The notes below the pieces were generated by a model. The model worked only from the letters and a program-made list of their open reading frames with translations, did not search any database and was not told the DNA's origin. From Psychromicrobium silvestre (GTDB lineage Bacteria > Actinomycetota > Actinomycetes > Actinomycetales > Micrococcaceae): a stretch of DNA of 64,000 nucleotides. Made by a program: the position numbers and the translations under genes. The stretch is from contig NZ_JACBYQ010000002.1 in NCBI RefSeq assembly GCF_013408295.1, positions 372,001 to 436,000 of the forward strand, given 5' to 3'. Shown here one piece after another: positions 11,622 to 58,742 of this stretch (position 1 is the stretch's first letter; every line of letters starts with the position of its first letter).

Positions 11622-12169
11622 CAGCGAATCCAGCCGAAGGGGGCCGCTTTCCGAGTGCTGGGCAGCGCAACGTCATTGCGCCAGCCGTGAATCCACTCGG
11701 GCAGCACCAGATCCGCAGGAGGCTGCCCGATCACTGCGAAAAGTTCCTCGTTACTCACCGGCTTTCCGCCGCCGACCAACCGCATCGCCATGAACGCACG
11801 AGCGTAGATCTCGCCGTCCACCACCATGCACTGCTCAAAGTACATCGCCCGCTCATCGAAGCCGAGCACTCGGGATTCCATCGTGTAGCGCTGCCACAGT
11901 TCGAGTGACTTACGGAAGGAAATGGTCTCCGCGCTCATCACCGGCGTCCATCCTTTGGCCCGGATCTTCTTCCACATTCCGGCACGAATCATCAGGTCAA
12001 AACGGCCTAGGTCCATCAGCGAGAAGTACATGCCGTTGTTAATGTGCCCGGCGATGTCGATATCGGTGGGCCACGCTCGCATCCGCACCGAGGAGTGACC
12101 CCACAGGCTCAGTGGTGCCCGGCGGGACGCAAAGAACAGGTGCAGTAGGGTGCGCAGAAACAGGTGCAT
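11621..12169 (-). CDS. Thioesterase-like hotdog protein (THEM6-like)
   Basis: This 182-residue protein is of the hotdog-fold thioesterase superfamily. The segment RAWPTDIDIAGHINNGMYFSLMDLGRFDLMIR at residues about 31-62 has the D-x-x-GHINN pattern seen in acyl-CoA thioesterases, here in the longer THEM6/Al-11-like variant. The N-terminal stretch MHLFLRTLLHLFFASRR is hydrophobic and basic and could act as a membrane association segment. It lies upstream of and overlaps the MalY-like gene. A functional link between the two is unknown. Confidence 0.8.
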   Translation of the reverse strand: MHLFLRTLLHLFFASRRAPLSLWGHSSVRMRAWPTDIDIAGHINNGMYFSLMDLGRFDLMIRAGMWKKIRAKGWTPVMSAETISFRKSLELWQRYTMESRVLGFDERAMYFEQCMVVDGEIYARAFMAMRLVGGGKPVSNEELFAVIGQPPADLVLPEWIHGWRNDVALPSTRKAAPFGWIR

Positions 12170-52832: not shown

Positions 52833-53151
52833 CTCTACCTGTCTCCTCAAAACATAGAGCCATCCCGCGCTGGAGACTTCCAGCCACACTCGAATTATGG
52901 CGCGTTCAAGCTGTTTCTAAGCTGTGAAACTGCTAGACCACTGTCAGTGAATCAGCAGACCTGCCAAATCACGGACCGTCTGAACAGGTAGGGATCTTGG
53001 GCCGGTGACTCACGTTTGCCCGAGGGAAGGGTAACGCACTATTGGCCACCGGCCCAAGGCGAGGGCACTGGAAAATTTGGGGAAAAACCAGTGCCCTCGA
53101 TAGGCTCCGCCGCCTCACCGGCAGGTATAGCGACGGAACCTGGCTCATTGT
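52833..53151. other. Intergenic region with two adjacent hairpins
   Basis: No ORF with family features in these 319 bp. Two perfect 12-bp inverted repeats stand next to each other: CTTGGGCCGGTG (52996-53007) with CACCGGCCCAAG (53047-53058), and CGAGGGCACTGG (53060-53071) with CCAGTGCCCTCG (53088-53099). They lie 52 bp past the stop of the surface-protein gene (minus strand). They have no T-run, so termination is likely but not typical. Confidence 0.7.
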
Positions 53152-56100
53152 CTAGCCACGCTGCCGAGTTCTCCTGCTAAGGATCCTCATCGTCAGTCCT
53201 AGGCCGAAGAGTCCGACGGCGCCAATCAGCAACCAGCCAAAGGCGGCGCCGGTGTAGGCGAGGGCAGGACTCTCGATGGTTACAGTTGCACTAGAAGTAA
53301 CAGTCGCCTTGGCTCCGGGTTTCTTGACAATGACGGTGCCGCCAGGAGTTTTGACCTCGACCCCAGGAATTGAGACCGACGCGGTGTTGGTGTAGCCGGA
53401 GACAATACTGTCCTGCTTGACCACTACGGTCTTAGTCTCACCCGGTTGCAGCGAGGCAATAGCCGGAATCGACGGCAGGTTTTCGTCTCCGATAACCACG
53501 TTGCCCAGAGGGATGTTTCCCGTATTGACGACGGTGAACTGCCAGTAGATGGAGGCTCCAGTCTTAATGCTGACGCTATTTGACCACGGTCCATCCGGAC
53601 TTGCAGAGACCTGCTTCAGCAAGGAAATTCCCGGCTCAGCCCCGAAATACCATGATTCATCGGCGGCCTGCAAAGCGTCTCCACCTGCTGGATTCGCGGC
53701 ACTAGCGGTCACAGTGTTGTGATACTGCCCGGAAATCGCTTTCCCCGAGGCGCTGAGTGTCACGGATTTGCCAGCAGCCAACGAAGCTACCGTGCCGACG
53801 AAAACCGTATTACCGGCTGAATCCTTGTCCGTGACATCAATGTTTGTCAGCGGCAAAGAACCGGTATTGGTGACCTTATAAGCCCAGGTCACCTGATCAC
53901 CAGGAGTGAGCTGAAGACCAGGAGCTGAATCAACGTTCTGCCCATTAGTCGTCTTCTCAACCGTCAAGGCAGCATTTCCTGCCAGATACCAGGACTGATC
54001 AGTCTGCGCTTTCGGCTGCGGCGCGAGAGCCTTGCCCTCCGCGTCCACAGCAGTCGCCGTCGCCGTCGCCGTGTTGTGATACTCACCATTGACCGCCGTG
54101 CCAGTTGCCGTGAAGGTACGGCTCTCTCCCGGCAGCAACGTCCCCGTCTGAGAGGAAGTGGGCGTCAAGGTTCCGGCCTTGCCGGTTCCATCGGTGTAGG
54201 CGTCGCTGATCGCGACGTTATCCAAAGGGGTGTCTCCGGTATTGGTCACCTGGTAGGTCCAGCTCACCGTGGATCCGGTAGCGACTGCAGCCCCTGGGGC
54301 TGAATCGTAATGAAGGCCATTGGTCTTTTTGACCAGTGTGAACGACGGCGTTCCCTCAACTTGCGCGGTTGCCGTGTTCGAAATGAAGTTGCGATTCTGT
54401 CCCTGATAATCGGCGGTGGCCGTTACATCGTTAACCGCGATGTCTTGATACTTCTGTGCCGCCGGAACATTCGTCGAGACAAGCAGCGTCAGATTGTCAC
54501 CACTGGCCAAGGAATCGAGCTTCAATCGGAACGCCGTGGCATTGCTTGGGTCAGTGGTCCAGGTTCCGGTGCTCGCACTAGTGGCATCCGTGGAGTACTC
54601 AAGAACCGCGCCCGCCGGAGCCCCGGTGACCGGGCCACTCAGCGTCACGGGGAACTGGGTTCCTCGGTTGTCTCCCAGATAGGGCAGGCGATCGAAGACG
54701 ACAGCGTTAGTAACTGATTCGGGAAGCGCATTGGCAACATACACCTGCCACTGCACCGTGCCCGGGGATTTGACCGTGGCGCTGAGCCCCCAGTCCGCAG
54801 AGGCATCCGCGCGCACCTGCTTTCCCAGCAAAAGACCGCCACTGGTGTTCACTACCGACTGATCAGTCCACTTCGCGACGCGGCTTAGGGCCGGATCGAG
54901 ATCATAGAGGTCTGGGTTGTAGTACGGTCCGTAGAAATCCATCCGCAAAGAGGAATATAGCGGGTCATTGGTAAAGGCCCAGGAGGTAACCTCAGCGGTG
55001 TTCTGGGTCGGGTCGAAGGCCTGAGCAAGTACCTGAGTAGGGATGTTGTAACGGAACCCTAGGAATTCGTCTCGATTCTTCACCTCCCCCACCGTGCGCA
55101 GTGACGGTAGATCCGCAACCACAATGTGAACAACCTGATGCACCTCGCCGTTGGCATCCGTGACGTTACTCGTGGTGACAGTCGCCCCGTTCCCCAGGGT
55201 CGGCACCGGAATGTTAGTGGTGGGGGTGCTGGCATAGGCCGGAGTAATGCCCACGGCTGGGTCATAAACTACGCCCGGCGGAAGGACGACGTCGAGCTCC
55301 GAGTTCTTATAGGAGCGGCCCACCGGATCTAGATTGGAGATCGTAGCCTGGTAAACCGCGGTTGAACCCACCAGGATCGACGTTGGCGCGGCAACAAAAG
55401 TGGCAATGTTCGCCCGGTCTTGAACGGTGAAATTGGCCGCGTCAGTCTTCGAGTGAGTGACACCGCTGGCGTCGGTCAGGCTGCCGGTTGCCGTGTTGAC
55501 AATAGGCCCCACCGAGCCGGTAGCGGGAGTTGGTAAGGAACCATCGGTCAGGCTTGGATAGGAGGCGGCGTAGTTGGCTTGAACATCGGCCTCGGCCCCT
55601 GAAGGGATCAAGGCTGCACCCGATGAAACCACTATCCGCCAACCGGTGAGGTGCTCACCGATAGGGATGTTCAGATCGACTGGGTTGTTTTGGTAGGCGT
55701 GCATGCCGGCAGATCCGGTTGTCTGCACCACAAAGTTGGTATTTTCGCCGGTGGTCAAAGCGCTGCCGGTGTAGGTCTGCCACAACGAATTGTTCGCGCT
55801 CGTGGTGTATTCAAGCGTATAAGGCAGATTTGCGTTCTGTAATGCGGCATTGAAAATGGTATTCAGGTAATACACATCGGAATGGTCGAAGAACTGAGCG
55901 TTACCGGCAGAGTCGGTAGCCGCGTCCTGGACGGTCATGGATGAAGCCTTATCGCTATCCACCCCGTTGATATAGGCGGCCTCGACCTGGTATGCCGAAA
56001 GGAAGCCACCGCTAGCCGAAACGATGTCTTTGTCCCCGTTGATTGCAGCCTTGGTAAGGAAGATGTCCTTAGTCACTCCCGTGGTGAAGTCCACGCTCTG

Positions 56101-57060
56101 AGCGCTAGCCGAGGTCGGTCCAGCAGCGTTTCCATCGTGGTCCTTGACCGTCAACTGAACGGTATTGAGCGGCGGTTTGATCGTTGCGTCCGGAAACTGA
56201 GCCACGGGGTAATGCACCTGGACCCAGATCTTCTTGCCACTCAGTTCAGTGAGCGATGGTCCCCGAGGGCCATAAGCGCCCAGGTGATCCCAGGTCACCG
56301 TTGTGGTGCCGTCCGGGTTATTCGTCGTGGTCCAAGTTCCGCCGTCGTTGCTGGACGTAGCGGTGATCACGGCACCCGCCGGAAGCGTATCCGTGAGAGT
56401 TTGCTGCCAAGTAGTGAACGTCGACGTGCCAGCATTGGCATTAACGGTACTGACATCAAGGTAGTAGGTGACGTCACGATTGTTGGAGCCTTGAACCGTA
56501 AAAGCCGACTTCCCCGGGTGGTAGTTGAGATCCCCAACCACCTTGGTATCGGCAGCCGAGGTGGGGTCGCCACTTTGATCGGAAATCGTGGTGTGCAACA
56601 CCGTGTCTTGGCTCTTCACCGTGTTGTCGATCTGCGTTACCGAATAGGTGAAGGTCGTCAGCTGCTTGGTGAGGTCGTTCAGGGTAAAGGTAATGACCCG
56701 AGTGGTTGGATCGTAGGTGTAGGACTGCACCGGCGTTCCGGGGCCGGTCGCCAAGGTATCCAGCTCCAGGCCCGGGGCCAGGGTCGAAGTCAGCACGACG
56801 CCGGTCATAGGTGCCGCCGGAGAGGCTCCGGGGGTAGAGATAGTCGCCGTATAAGAGAACCCTTGGTTGAGCGGAGCGCTCACCGGAGCGGTTAGGCTCA
56901 GCGTGTAAGCGCCAGCCGCCGATGCCGAAGAGGCAAAAGGAATCAGGGTCGCAATAGCTAGGCAAAATGCCAGCAATACGGACACAAATTTTCGGCTACC
57001 TAACGTATGTCGCCGTCGAATCCCCCCACCCGGGGCCACCCTCTTTGGCTCGCTATACAT
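53152..57060 (-). CDS. Large LAXTG-anchored surface protein with repeated domains
   Basis: A 1302-residue secreted wall protein; start ATG 57060 (MYSEPKRVAP) has GGGAG 8 bp upstream. A signal peptide (SVLLAFCLAIATLIPFASSA) ends near residue 55. The body is Thr/Asn/Gly-rich beta-domains: DUF11/isopeptide-like modules to about residue 900, then three similar repeats of about 110 residues (VKKTNGLHYDSAPG, VEKTTNGQNVDSAPG, LKQVSASPDGP), DUF7507-like. It ends in LAYTG at 1267, a hydrophobic helix and an Arg-rich tail, matching a class E sortase signal (LAXTG). It should be a wall-attached adhesin-like protein. It is preceded by the sigma factor gene. Confidence 0.9.
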   Translation of the reverse strand: MYSEPKRVAPGGGIRRRHTLGSRKFVSVLLAFCLAIATLIPFASSASAAGAYTLSLTAPVSAPLNQGFSYTATISTPGASPAAPMTGVVLTSTLAPGLELDTLATGPGTPVQSYTYDPTTRVITFTLNDLTKQLTTFTYSVTQIDNTVKSQDTVLHTTISDQSGDPTSAADTKVVGDLNYHPGKSAFTVQGSNNRDVTYYLDVSTVNANAGTSTFTTWQQTLTDTLPAGAVITATSSNDGGTWTTTNNPDGTTTVTWDHLGAYGPRGPSLTELSGKKIWVQVHYPVAQFPDATIKPPLNTVQLTVKDHDGNAAGPTSASAQSVDFTTGVTKDIFLTKAAINGDKDIVSASGGFLSAYQVEAAYINGVDSDKASSMTVQDAATDSAGNAQFFDHSDVYYLNTIFNAALQNANLPYTLEYTTSANNSLWQTYTGSALTTGENTNFVVQTTGSAGMHAYQNNPVDLNIPIGEHLTGWRIVVSSGAALIPSGAEADVQANYAASYPSLTDGSLPTPATGSVGPIVNTATGSLTDASGVTHSKTDAANFTVQDRANIATFVAAPTSILVGSTAVYQATISNLDPVGRSYKNSELDVVLPPGVVYDPAVGITPAYASTPTTNIPVPTLGNGATVTTSNVTDANGEVHQVVHIVVADLPSLRTVGEVKNRDEFLGFRYNIPTQVLAQAFDPTQNTAEVTSWAFTNDPLYSSLRMDFYGPYYNPDLYDLDPALSRVAKWTDQSVVNTSGGLLLGKQVRADASADWGLSATVKSPGTVQWQVYVANALPESVTNAVVFDRLPYLGDNRGTQFPVTLSGPVTGAPAGAVLEYSTDATSASTGTWTTDPSNATAFRLKLDSLASGDNLTLLVSTNVPAAQKYQDIAVNDVTATADYQGQNRNFISNTATAQVEGTPSFTLVKKTNGLHYDSAPGAAVATGSTVSWTYQVTNTGDTPLDNVAISDAYTDGTGKAGTLTPTSSQTGTLLPGESRTFTATGTAVNGEYHNTATATATAVDAEGKALAPQPKAQTDQSWYLAGNAALTVEKTTNGQNVDSAPGLQLTPGDQVTWAYKVTNTGSLPLTNIDVTDKDSAGNTVFVGTVASLAAGKSVTLSASGKAISGQYHNTVTASAANPAGGDALQAADESWYFGAEPGISLLKQVSASPDGPWSNSVSIKTGASIYWQFTVVNTGNIPLGNVVIGDENLPSIPAIASLQPGETKTVVVKQDSIVSGYTNTASVSIPGVEVKTPGGTVIVKKPGAKATVTSSATVTIESPALAYTGAAFGWLLIGAVGLFGLGLTMRILSRRTRQRG

Positions 57061-57254
57061 ATAAAACACTCCCATTCCCCCATTTAATGCAACTAGTGAT
57101 TCCCCCAGCGCAGCCCCGACCTTGGGATCAAAGCCCAAGGCCTCCCAATGGGTGCTGCACCGCGTTACTGGCAATATCGCCATCTGTAGGTGTCAAAAAT
57201 TAAAAAAACATGACGCGCTCCCCTGAGCCCGTGTACAAGGGGCGATACTCCCGA
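57061..57254. other. Gap between sigma-fusion gene and surface protein gene
   Basis: These 194 bp on the minus strand must hold any separate promoter for the surface protein. A TTGACA (57191-57196, minus) follows a TTTTTTTAATTTT tract, but no good -10 stands at the right spacing, so housekeeping control is unproven; an alternative-sigma promoter would be the interesting case. Confidence 0.4.
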
Positions 57255-58742
57255 TCAACTGACGGCCCTGGTTGAGCCCGTCGAGACAATTTGATCGCCG
57301 CTGACCTCCATGCTGAAGGACGCTGTTCCCTCCGCTTCTCGGGTCACCGAAAAGGTGAAGGAAGCAGAGGAGTTAGCTGCCATCTGAGTGGTCCTGCAGC
57401 TCCACGCCGCCCCCGCAGGGCTGCAGGACCAACCGGCGGCTGGCTTCACTGTGCCAAGCGAGATTGGCCCGCTGGGCGAAATCGTTACCACAGCGCTTCC
57501 GTCGGGGGTCTTTCCCGCCGGTGTGAAGCCAACGGTCGCCGTGTATCTGTCGGTGACGATCGCAGTCAGCGTGCTGAACGGTACGACTCTTGTCCGAACC
57601 ACCGAAGGCGCGGGTGTGGCGACGCTATTACTAGTCACTGTTGGACTAGGAGGCTCTATCGCGGCGGCCACGGGCGCCTCGGCGGGCAAAGCGACTGCCT
57701 GGGCTGCGGGCGGGGCTGGCTGAGTCGCTGACGAGGTCGGCTGCCGAGAAGGAAAAAGGGAAGGGGACGAGGTAGGGGTTCCGGCCGTTATTGGCGGCGC
57801 CGAGAAGGATGGCACTGGAGCTAAGACGCTGGGGGAAGGACTCGGATGTGGAACCAGCAAAATTCCGAGCAGGACGGCGGCAGCAGCTACCCCGATCAGA
57901 CCAGTGAGGAGGCGTCCCCGAGTAAGAAACCCGCCGGTAGCCGCCGGAAGTGAAGCAGCCGTAGTATTGGCCATCCCCTGATAAGTACTGGCCGATACCC
58001 CGACAAGTGCGGGAACGAGCAACATTCGCAGGGCAAACTTGGTCTCCGCGAGTTGCTGCACCACCGTGCTGCAGCTTGCGCATGAGGCTACATGTCGGTG
58101 CAGGTTCGCGGGCAAAATTAAGGGATCGCCGCTACGAATGAAGGGTTCGACGGTGTTGGCCAGTCGATTGCAGGCATCCGTGGGGGATTTTGAGCGCAGT
58201 GTTTGGACAAAAGACCTACGCAAGCCTCGGCGGGCCCGCAGCGCCAGCGCGGAGACAGCGTTTGAACTCATACCCATCAAAGCGGCCGCTTCCGCCGGTT
58301 TCACTTCATCGATCTCCAGGTACCAAAGAACTTCCTGCCAGCGCTCGGGCAAGGCCTGAAAGGCTCCACGCACCAGATCGGTATCAATATCCAAGCGGAT
58401 TTCATCCGGTTCAACCACTTCGTCCAGCAAGGCATTATCTGCCACCGGAAGAACCTTGGCGGCGTCTTGATTGGTTCGGGAGGCTTTCCGAGAAATGACG
58501 GTCAGGAAATAAGAGCGAAACGAATCGGTCGGCCCCTTACCGTCCGTCATCTGGGCGTAGACATCGGCAACCGCGCTGGAGAGAACGTCCTCCGCGTCGC
58601 TCGGATTGACGACCCGAGCCCTGGCCAGCCGCAAGCCCATCGGAGAGTGTCGCGCCACCAACTCGCTCAGAGCATCTTCGTCTCCATCGTGAAAGGCAGC
58701 GAGGAGAGAACGATCCGATTTTACGGAAGAATCAAGATCCAC
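57255..58742 (-). CDS. Sigma-70 family factor fused to zinc anti-sigma motif, TM helix and exported domain
   Basis: A 495-residue fusion; GTG 58742 has AGGAG 7 bp upstream. Residues about 10-85 (sigma region 2; ARHSPMGLRLARARVVNPSDAEDVLSS) and 125-180 (region 4; ALPERWQEVLWYLEIDEVKPAEAAALMG) are a complete ECF-type sigma factor. Then come a zinc motif H217-x3-C221-x2-C224, a hydrophobic stretch at 236-252, a clear TM helix at 277-297, a Pro/Ser-rich linker to about 380, and a beta-domain with DUF11-like sequence (GWSCSPAGAAWSC). With one TM helix the end lies outside. Similar fusions are known in ECF52/53-like groups. It precedes the LAYTG surface-protein gene. Confidence 0.9.
   Translation of the reverse strand: MDLDSSVKSDRSLLAAFHDGDEDALSELVARHSPMGLRLARARVVNPSDAEDVLSSAVADVYAQMTDGKGPTDSFRSYFLTVISRKASRTNQDAAKVLPVADNALLDEVVEPDEIRLDIDTDLVRGAFQALPERWQEVLWYLEIDEVKPAEAAALMGMSSNAVSALALRARRGLRRSFVQTLRSKSPTDACNRLANTVEPFIRSGDPLILPANLHRHVASCASCSTVVQQLAETKFALRMLLVPALVGVSASTYQGMANTTAASLPAATGGFLTRGRLLTGLIGVAAAAVLLGILLVPHPSPSPSVLAPVPSFSAPPITAGTPTSSPSLFPSRQPTSSATQPAPPAAQAVALPAEAPVAAAIEPPSPTVTSNSVATPAPSVVRTRVVPFSTLTAIVTDRYTATVGFTPAGKTPDGSAVVTISPSGPISLGTVKPAAGWSCSPAGAAWSCRTTQMAANSSASFTFSVTREAEGTASFSMEVSGDQIVSTGSTRAVS

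Follow-up and report, generated by a model that had tools for sequence, protein, structure and literature searches.

Fused sigma/anti-sigma proteins are known from actinobacteria, and for the ECF52-type members (ECF, extracytoplasmic function) release of the sigma part by proteolysis has been proposed (PMC8999054, PMC5826349). Proteolytic release is also described for IutY (PMC8999054), and the SigI/RsgI systems control extracellular machinery (PMC4711584, PMC12203970). CLIPPER (DUF11) and CLIPPER_2 (DUF7507) are adhesin-stalk domains (PMC12617251). All statements on these sources, here and below, refer to the parts of their text accessible to us. Here we analyze a gene pair of the soil-type bacterium Psychromicrobium silvestre (Micrococcaceae) in a stretch of 64,000 nucleotides (NCBI RefSeq assembly GCF_013408295.1, contig NZ_JACBYQ010000002.1, positions 372,001 to 436,000), called the window below; coordinates are those of the window unless a locus (L-number) or contig is named. 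The upstream gene (57255..58742, minus strand) encodes a 495-aa fusion of an ECF sigma factor, a zinc anti-sigma segment, a membrane helix and an exported beta-domain. Directly downstream, in the same orientation, 53152..57183 encodes a 1343-aa surface protein with a signal peptide, DUF7507/DUF11 repeats and a LAYTG sorting signal. We believe, with a probability of roughly 0.58, that the pair is a surface-polymer switch, in which an event outside the cell would release a self-inhibited ECF sigma factor to transcribe the LAYTG gene. This reading draws on four computed results: the domain order of the fusion, the expansion of its family in the genome, the association of the family with surface genes, and a shared promoter-like motif.

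The fusion was identified from its open reading frame (ORF) with Pfam and NCBIfam profiles. Sigma region 2 covers residues 28-89 (58476..58661, minus strand as for all features of the pair) and scores 22.3 bits with Sigma70_r2, just below the Pfam cut-off of 24, while sigma region 4 covers residues 124-172 (58227..58373) and scores 27.9 bits with Sigma70_r4_2 (cut-off 25.7). The NCBIfam sigma70-ECF profile matches at 50.2 bits, above its cut-off of 42.9, and the AlphaFold model of the sigma part matches sigmaE. The zinc anti-sigma motif C191-x25-H217-x3-C221-x2-C224 (58071..58172) follows, and its four Cys/His residues are all invariant in a 46-row alignment. Of 114 homologous called ORFs, 111 contain HxxxCxxC, each with a cysteine or histidine 20-28 residues upstream; this set excludes five further fusion homologs (L056, L061, L067, L137 and L144). 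C191 is likely the fourth zinc ligand. The Pfam family zf-HC2 did not reach E ≤ 1 for the window fusion and gave no match to the L056 fusion at E ≤ 0.01; it matched all five other fusions scanned, three of them above the cut-off.

A single membrane helix was found by hydropathy at residues 279-297 (57852..57908). The 30 residues preceding it hold two arginines and no acidic residue, and the 30 following hold no charge. With one helix, arginines before it and no charge after it, the tail of the fusion would lie outside the cell. For another hydrophobic stretch, at about residues 240-258, the AlphaFold model shows with low confidence the last part of a long helix (222-261). A topology with two helices, placing the tail in the cytoplasm, is supported neither by the charges nor by the AlphaFold model. 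In this model (residues 1-305; overall predicted local distance difference test, pLDDT, 78.8; predicted template modelling score, pTM, 0.46) the sigma domains are confident. The helix is followed by a Pro/Ser/Ala-rich spacer read from the translation (residues 298-381, 57600..57851) and by the beta-sandwich tail (residues 382-495, 57258..57599). ORF, profile matches, hydropathy and model thus give the domain order of the original prediction, which was made from the sequence alone; it had placed the single helix at 277-297 and named H217, C221 and C224 correctly, and had overlooked C191.

The 114-residue tail is modelled as all-beta with nine strands (pLDDT 92), and the G, W, C and C of its GWxC...C pattern are invariant in an alignment of 29 tails. 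The best Foldseek match of the model is the CLIPPER (DUF11) domain 9IFR (E 1.3e-7, TM 0.73/0.69). The second match (E 7.2e-5) is more than two orders of magnitude behind, and carbohydrate-binding beta-sandwiches are found among the weaker ones. On the model, the tail has the CnaA-like beta-sandwich fold of CLIPPER (DUF11). Pfam DUF11 does not match the window tail; it matches 2 of the 29 tails, at best with E 3e-5. No carbohydrate-binding family matched in the window tail, and a sequence search with the tail profile reached no protein of solved structure at E ≤ 1. The only lysines of the window tail are K411 and K433; as its first strand has none, it lacks the Lys-Asp-Asn isopeptide triad of 9IFR, which is also lacking in some DUF11 domains. 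Outside the called fusions, the tail profile matched (domain E < 0.5) only a piece of a broken fusion in L066 and ORF L126|14, a 786-aa protein with a signal-peptide-like start and no sorting signal, which adjoins a fusion. The tail had been said to resemble the DUF11-type domains of the neighbouring protein, with a structure comparison as the check. This stands by fold, as the CLIPPER fold is the best match, but not by sequence for the window tail, and there is no profile kinship with the DUF7507 repeats.

The surface protein carries three DUF7507 (CLIPPER_2) repeats by Pfam, at 54043..54351, 53683..53973 and 53371..53637. LAYTG lies 35 residues from the C-terminus and is followed by a membrane helix and an Arg-rich end (together 53155..53259). 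The true start is probably at 57075 or 57060 rather than 57183, because the signal peptide, read by eye, is then N-terminal. The genome holds one sortase-family match, and signal peptide, sorting motif, helix, basic end and genomic sortase together make this an LPXTG-type protein. The LAXTG protein with DUF7507 repeats expected directly downstream on the same strand is therefore present. Our site scan listed no terminator-like site between the two genes. A perfect 12-bp inverted repeat (loop 16) was seen by eye at 53060-53099, about 50 bp past the surface gene; it is terminator-like but without a T run, and it is not in the site-scan list. GC contents (sigma gene 0.606, surface gene 0.578, window 0.601), looked at for the idea of a strain-specific island, were not telling.

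The P. silvestre genome (G000; 3.17 Mb, two contigs, C1 and C2) encodes nine fusions, the one in the window included. The other eight are 26-33% identical to it in the alignment, and all but one of the nine carry the GWxC...C tail. The exception, L045 (C2:369474-370415), is a tail-less paralog of 313 aa that ends after the membrane segment, 1.6 kb before the start of the window. Each of the six other genomes of the genus has one or two fusion matches; in one of them, G003, the fusion at L066:8865-10402 (minus strand) is split over three ORFs, which indicates a broken gene or a sequencing error. Neither a tree of 104 homologs nor one of 42 Micrococcaceae rows joins the nine G000 fusions in a single clade; they form several lineages. 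We do not claim the window fusion and the L043 fusion as one lineage: they group at 97/96 with a long-branch warning in the 104-row tree, and the 42-row tree does not resolve them.

Six of the eight other G000 fusions lie beside or near envelope genes, namely those for DUF7507 proteins, exosortase cassettes and a sugar-transferase locus; L039 and L045 have no obvious envelope-gene neighbour. DUF11/DUF7507 domains occur in 12 ORFs of the genome. Five of the nine fusions (window, L038, L041, L042 and L043) are within 2 kb of such an ORF; of 200,000 random placements, 3 did as well. Fusion and surface gene are co-directional in the window and L043, and divergent in L038, L041 and L042. The genome also has DUF7507 giants at C1:727047-734867 and C2:790467-815643; in one giant frame of 3295 aa, 21 matches follow each other every 375 bp and 20 of them score identically, and adjacent giant frames have 3228 and 5401 aa.

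The association extends beyond this genome. Neighbours were counted for 99 fusions at 98 loci (77 named), leaving out the G000 loci, L154, homologs with E > 1e-20 and the five further homologs mentioned above; near means within two genes of the fusion and far means four or more genes away. DUF7507-type genes account for 7 of 378 near genes versus 0 of 1031 far genes (Fisher p 1e-4), and genes with a strict sorting signal for 11 of 378 versus 10 of 1031 (p 0.012). In a clade of four species (L053, L087, L090 and L092; support 100/92 and 98/90), the next co-directional gene encodes a DUF7507 protein in all four. Three of these surface genes end in a sorting signal, that of L087 is cut off by the contig end, and the called starts of L053 make its fusion and DUF7507 gene overlap. 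Within the genus, L061 (G004) and L056 (G006) each have a DUF7927/DUF11 gene that ends in LPNTG and shares 4 bp with the start of the fusion on the same strand, which strengthens the pairing, and a DUF7927/DUF11 gene ending in LAVTG precedes the broken fusion of L066. A DUF11-type gene with a sorting signal thus lies beside a fusion, in one case a broken one, in G001, G003, G004 and G006, four of the six further genomes of the genus, and in two gene orders. Conservation of the gene pair in other Micrococcaceae had been proposed as a check; the pairing as such recurs in G000, the four-species clade and the genus, while none of the six further genomes of the genus has the exact window pair.

Exosortases also lie close to the fusions. 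The three exosortase-family matches of G000 (L040:7131-7763, L042:7354-7956 and L038:15784-16446) are 2.8, 1.1 and 5.9 kb, respectively, from the fusions of these loci. One is above the NCBI cut-off for XrtS, the other two only above the general TIGR04178 cut-off, and the two glycosyltransferases scanned beside exosortases match an XrtP-associated family below its cut-off. L040 and its counterpart in a second species, L052, share the fusion, a neighbour of about 250 aa, a protein with a signal peptide and a C-terminal helix, and the exosortase. The protein of about 250 aa, usually encoded divergently, accompanies 68 of the 114 fusions at a distance of no more than two called genes, in hosts that range from Micrococcaceae to Amycolatopsis and Lentzea (an example is L044:8415-9182, minus strand). 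The L042 copy has no Pfam match above cut-off and the L044 copy no NCBIfam match, and the gene is absent beside the window fusion. Surface polymers are the likely output of the fusion family.

The promoter-like motif was found by reading the upstream regions of the clade L053/L087/L090/L092 by eye, which gave TTTTCGCGTCACGA; this was then tested. A motif of about CGTCAYGA-N14-NYACT precedes fused sigma genes, neighbour genes and surface genes in several Micrococcaceae. Within three mismatches, TTTTCGCGTCACGA occurs in 15 of 47 regions upstream of fusions or surface genes versus 2.25% of random stretches, and the core GCGTCACGA gives 24 sites at no more than one mismatch versus 4.8 expected. 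The spacing to the second half, NYACY, is exactly 14 nt in 19 distinct sites, versus 0-2 sites for any other value between 5 and 25; the motif bases were chosen after looking, and this spacing count serves as its own control. An in-frame ATG follows 7-8 nt past the second half in 16 of 35 module sites, which would place the halves near -35 and -10 of leaderless starts. The sites face fused sigma genes, the divergent gene for the protein of about 250 aa, and surface genes: all three (sigma gene, divergent neighbour and surface gene) in L040 and L088, and the first two in L086 and L091. In L044, L047 and L050, the motif is upstream of a gene two away; for L044 and L047, Pfam identifies this gene as a bacterial sugar transferase. 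Loci of G000 have variants of their own that are shared within the locus, for example CTAC- in L040, where all three genes have it, and GTACTT in L041, where the sigma gene and the gene at 11628 do. Outside Micrococcaceae, scattered fusions score 11 of 12 positions of the consensus described below, and none of those scanned scores 12. A word search in 17 upstream regions barely exceeded shuffled controls, with the best 8-mer in 11 regions versus a shuffle maximum of 10 and the 9- and 10-mers not above shuffles, and a scan for sigma-70 promoters found none. Upstream of L041:11628 a CRP/GlxR-like palindrome, TGTGACTTGAATCACA, was seen by eye, with a near copy upstream of the surface gene at L038:10422.

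In the gap between the window genes lies a candidate site, GCGTCATGT-N14-ACACC (57189..57216, minus strand). It agrees at 12 of 12 positions with a consensus written from loci of other species, a score reached by 0.25% of random 300-bp stretches (p 0.0025) and by 0 of 180 control upstream regions, although the site was already known when the 12-position consensus was written. The surface genes beside G000 fusions reach at least 11 of 12 in three of eight cases (window, L041:11628 and L043; random rate 2.2%), and none of the five tested of the six unpaired DUF7507 ORFs does. The gene at L041:11628 belongs to no Pfam family above cut-off. The recurring pairing and this site variant speak for the earlier hypothesis that the sigma factor transcribes the surface gene, and the lack of a site at the window sigma gene itself speaks against it. 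We regard transcription of the neighbour by the sigma factor as well supported, and the window sigma factor would read the 57189-57216 site.

The switch might then work as follows. Sigma regions 2 and 4 would be kept at the membrane by the zinc anti-sigma segment. A single helix would cross the membrane, and the Pro/Ser spacer would pass the wall and present the CLIPPER(DUF11)-like domain outside. An outside event at the tail would free the sigma part, through cleavage or a conformational change, and the freed sigma factor would transcribe the LAYTG gene from the 57189-57216 site. The release step, the orientation of the tail and the reading of this site by this sigma factor are inferred. That the tail recognizes the surface protein or the surface layer, and reports its assembly or a defect as the original prediction had it, is a guess.

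Apart from the prior knowledge of the site, a number of results weigh against this reading. The site is off-consensus (ATGT, ACACC) and reaches only p 0.18 with a position weight matrix trained on other species. Genome-wide, the 12-position consensus has 17 matches versus 17 for a backwards control; five of the 17 are linked to fusions (L039 and the window have one each and the surroundings of L044 three, of which one is about 13 kb distant, ahead of a glycosyltransferase), and another is inside a gene 2 kb from L039. Both L038 surface genes and those at L040, L041:12710 and L042 stay below 11 of 12, and L056 and L061 score no better than 9-10 of 12. No such site stands upstream of the window sigma gene itself (8-9 of 12), so self-amplification is not indicated. 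The exact pair is missing from the six other genomes of the genus, as stated above. Homology of the tail to the DUF7507 repeats was rejected (hhalign probability 0.6%), and the packing of sigma and anti-sigma parts is not established, because the pTM of the AlphaFold model is only 0.46.

The tail might instead respond to a polysaccharide of the wall or capsule, or to a different envelope stress; the fusion family would then be a general regulator of envelope polymers, with the surface protein as one of several outputs, rather than a sensor of adhesin assembly. SCO4117, an ECF52 member, ends in a carbohydrate-binding domain (PMC5826349), and the branch L044/L047/L049/L050/L051 includes the loci beside a sugar transferase (L044 and L047), with the promoter-like sites two genes away at L044, L047 and L050. 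Carbohydrate-binding folds do appear among the weaker matches of the tail, but the far better match is an adhesin-stalk domain and no carbohydrate-binding family is found in it; we consider this explanation doubtful. A further explanation is that another regulator or sigma factor reads the motif and acts on both genes, the fusion being a target and not the reader. The motif was found by position alone, it is missing at the window sigma gene, and outside Micrococcaceae it reaches only 11 of 12 at scattered fusions. The site patterns at L040, L088, L086 and L091 are, however, those of an autoregulated ECF sigma factor, and L040 and L041 each have their own variant shared within the locus, which makes this unlikely in our view.

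It is still less probable that the neighbours are inherited passengers of a duplicated block of sigma and surface genes, with no present regulation. The fusions are paralogs, the window and L043, both co-directional, group together in the larger tree with the reservation given above, and the surface genes at L042, L038, L056 and L061 lack a good site. Such a block does not account for arrangements that vary within G000 (two co-directional, three divergent), with a surface-gene-first order added by the genus, nor for fusions of several lineages, and passengers would not leave a motif of fixed spacing. The surface-polymer switch is the reading that we prefer. A bolder form of it is tentative and in our judgement rather improbable: the fusions would be trans-envelope switches whose outer domains are disulfide-bonded mimics of the CLIPPER fold, nine parallel channels in one genome, each tuned to a single polymer and to the way it is anchored (by sortase, by exosortase or as capsule). 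Each channel would measure the assembly or shedding of its polymer and adjust the polymer's transcription accordingly, so that the surface would monitor itself.

If the surface-polymer switch is real, one polypeptide couples the condition of a sorted surface protein outside the cell to the transcription of its gene, in paralogous channels working side by side as in SigI/RsgI for the cellulosome. To our knowledge, how Gram-positive cells sense the state of their surface fibres is largely open. The motif is a candidate promoter for the fused ECF sigma factors of Micrococcaceae and predicts regulons; the accessible text of PMC5826349 calls the ECF52 promoter signature unsettled. The three exosortases near fusions offer a handle on actinobacterial exosortases. 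In the literature that our search reached in part, we found no pairing of a fused sigma factor with DUF11/LPXTG genes and nothing on exosortases with sigma factors. As a side observation, small proteins at L077:5813-6484 and L084:4484-5347 (both minus strand) start with MTxCLANTG followed immediately by a membrane helix, an N-terminal sorting-like motif.

Among known systems, the SigI/RsgI systems of Clostridium thermocellum resemble G000 in having many paralogous sigma/anti-sigma systems with their own outer domains and similar promoter elements, but there the sigma and anti-sigma proteins are separate, the outer domains mostly carbohydrate-related and the sigma family another one. The window fusion, a single 495-aa ORF, may work like SigI/RsgI without being a member. 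IutY (ECF243, Pseudomonas putida) likewise joins a sigma factor and a membrane anti-sigma factor in one polypeptide; it differs in serving Gram-negative iron-siderophore signalling, and the accessible text describes no adhesin-like outer domain. CLIPPER (DUF11) provides the fold of the window tail (9IFR) and CLIPPER_2 (DUF7507) the family of the surface repeats (PMC12617251), whereas the window tail has the conserved GWxC...C in place of the isopeptide triad. At L044, a convergent TetR gene lies directly downstream of the fusion, and L044 has counterparts in four other genus genomes; atrA, beside SCO4117, is presumably of the TetR type as well. SCO4117, the single fusion of Streptomyces coelicolor, adjoins atrA (PMC5826349). 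This ECF52 protein and the ECF48/ECF53 groups show the same succession as the window fusion, from sigma factor to zinc finger, helix or helices, Pro-rich extension and exported C-terminal domain. The window fusion has the features of ECF52/ECF53, that is, sigma regions 2 and 4, a zinc segment after region 4, and a helix with a Pro-rich extension, and carries a CLIPPER(DUF11)-like tail where ECF52 has a carbohydrate-binding domain. The family also differs in its nine copies in G000, in its surface-protein and exosortase neighbours, and in its motif, CGTCAY-N17-CACT versus the reported CSGYN-17bp-SRHA. In our view the window fusion is a well-supported new form of the known actinobacterial fused sigma/anti-sigma proteins of the ECF52/53-like type.

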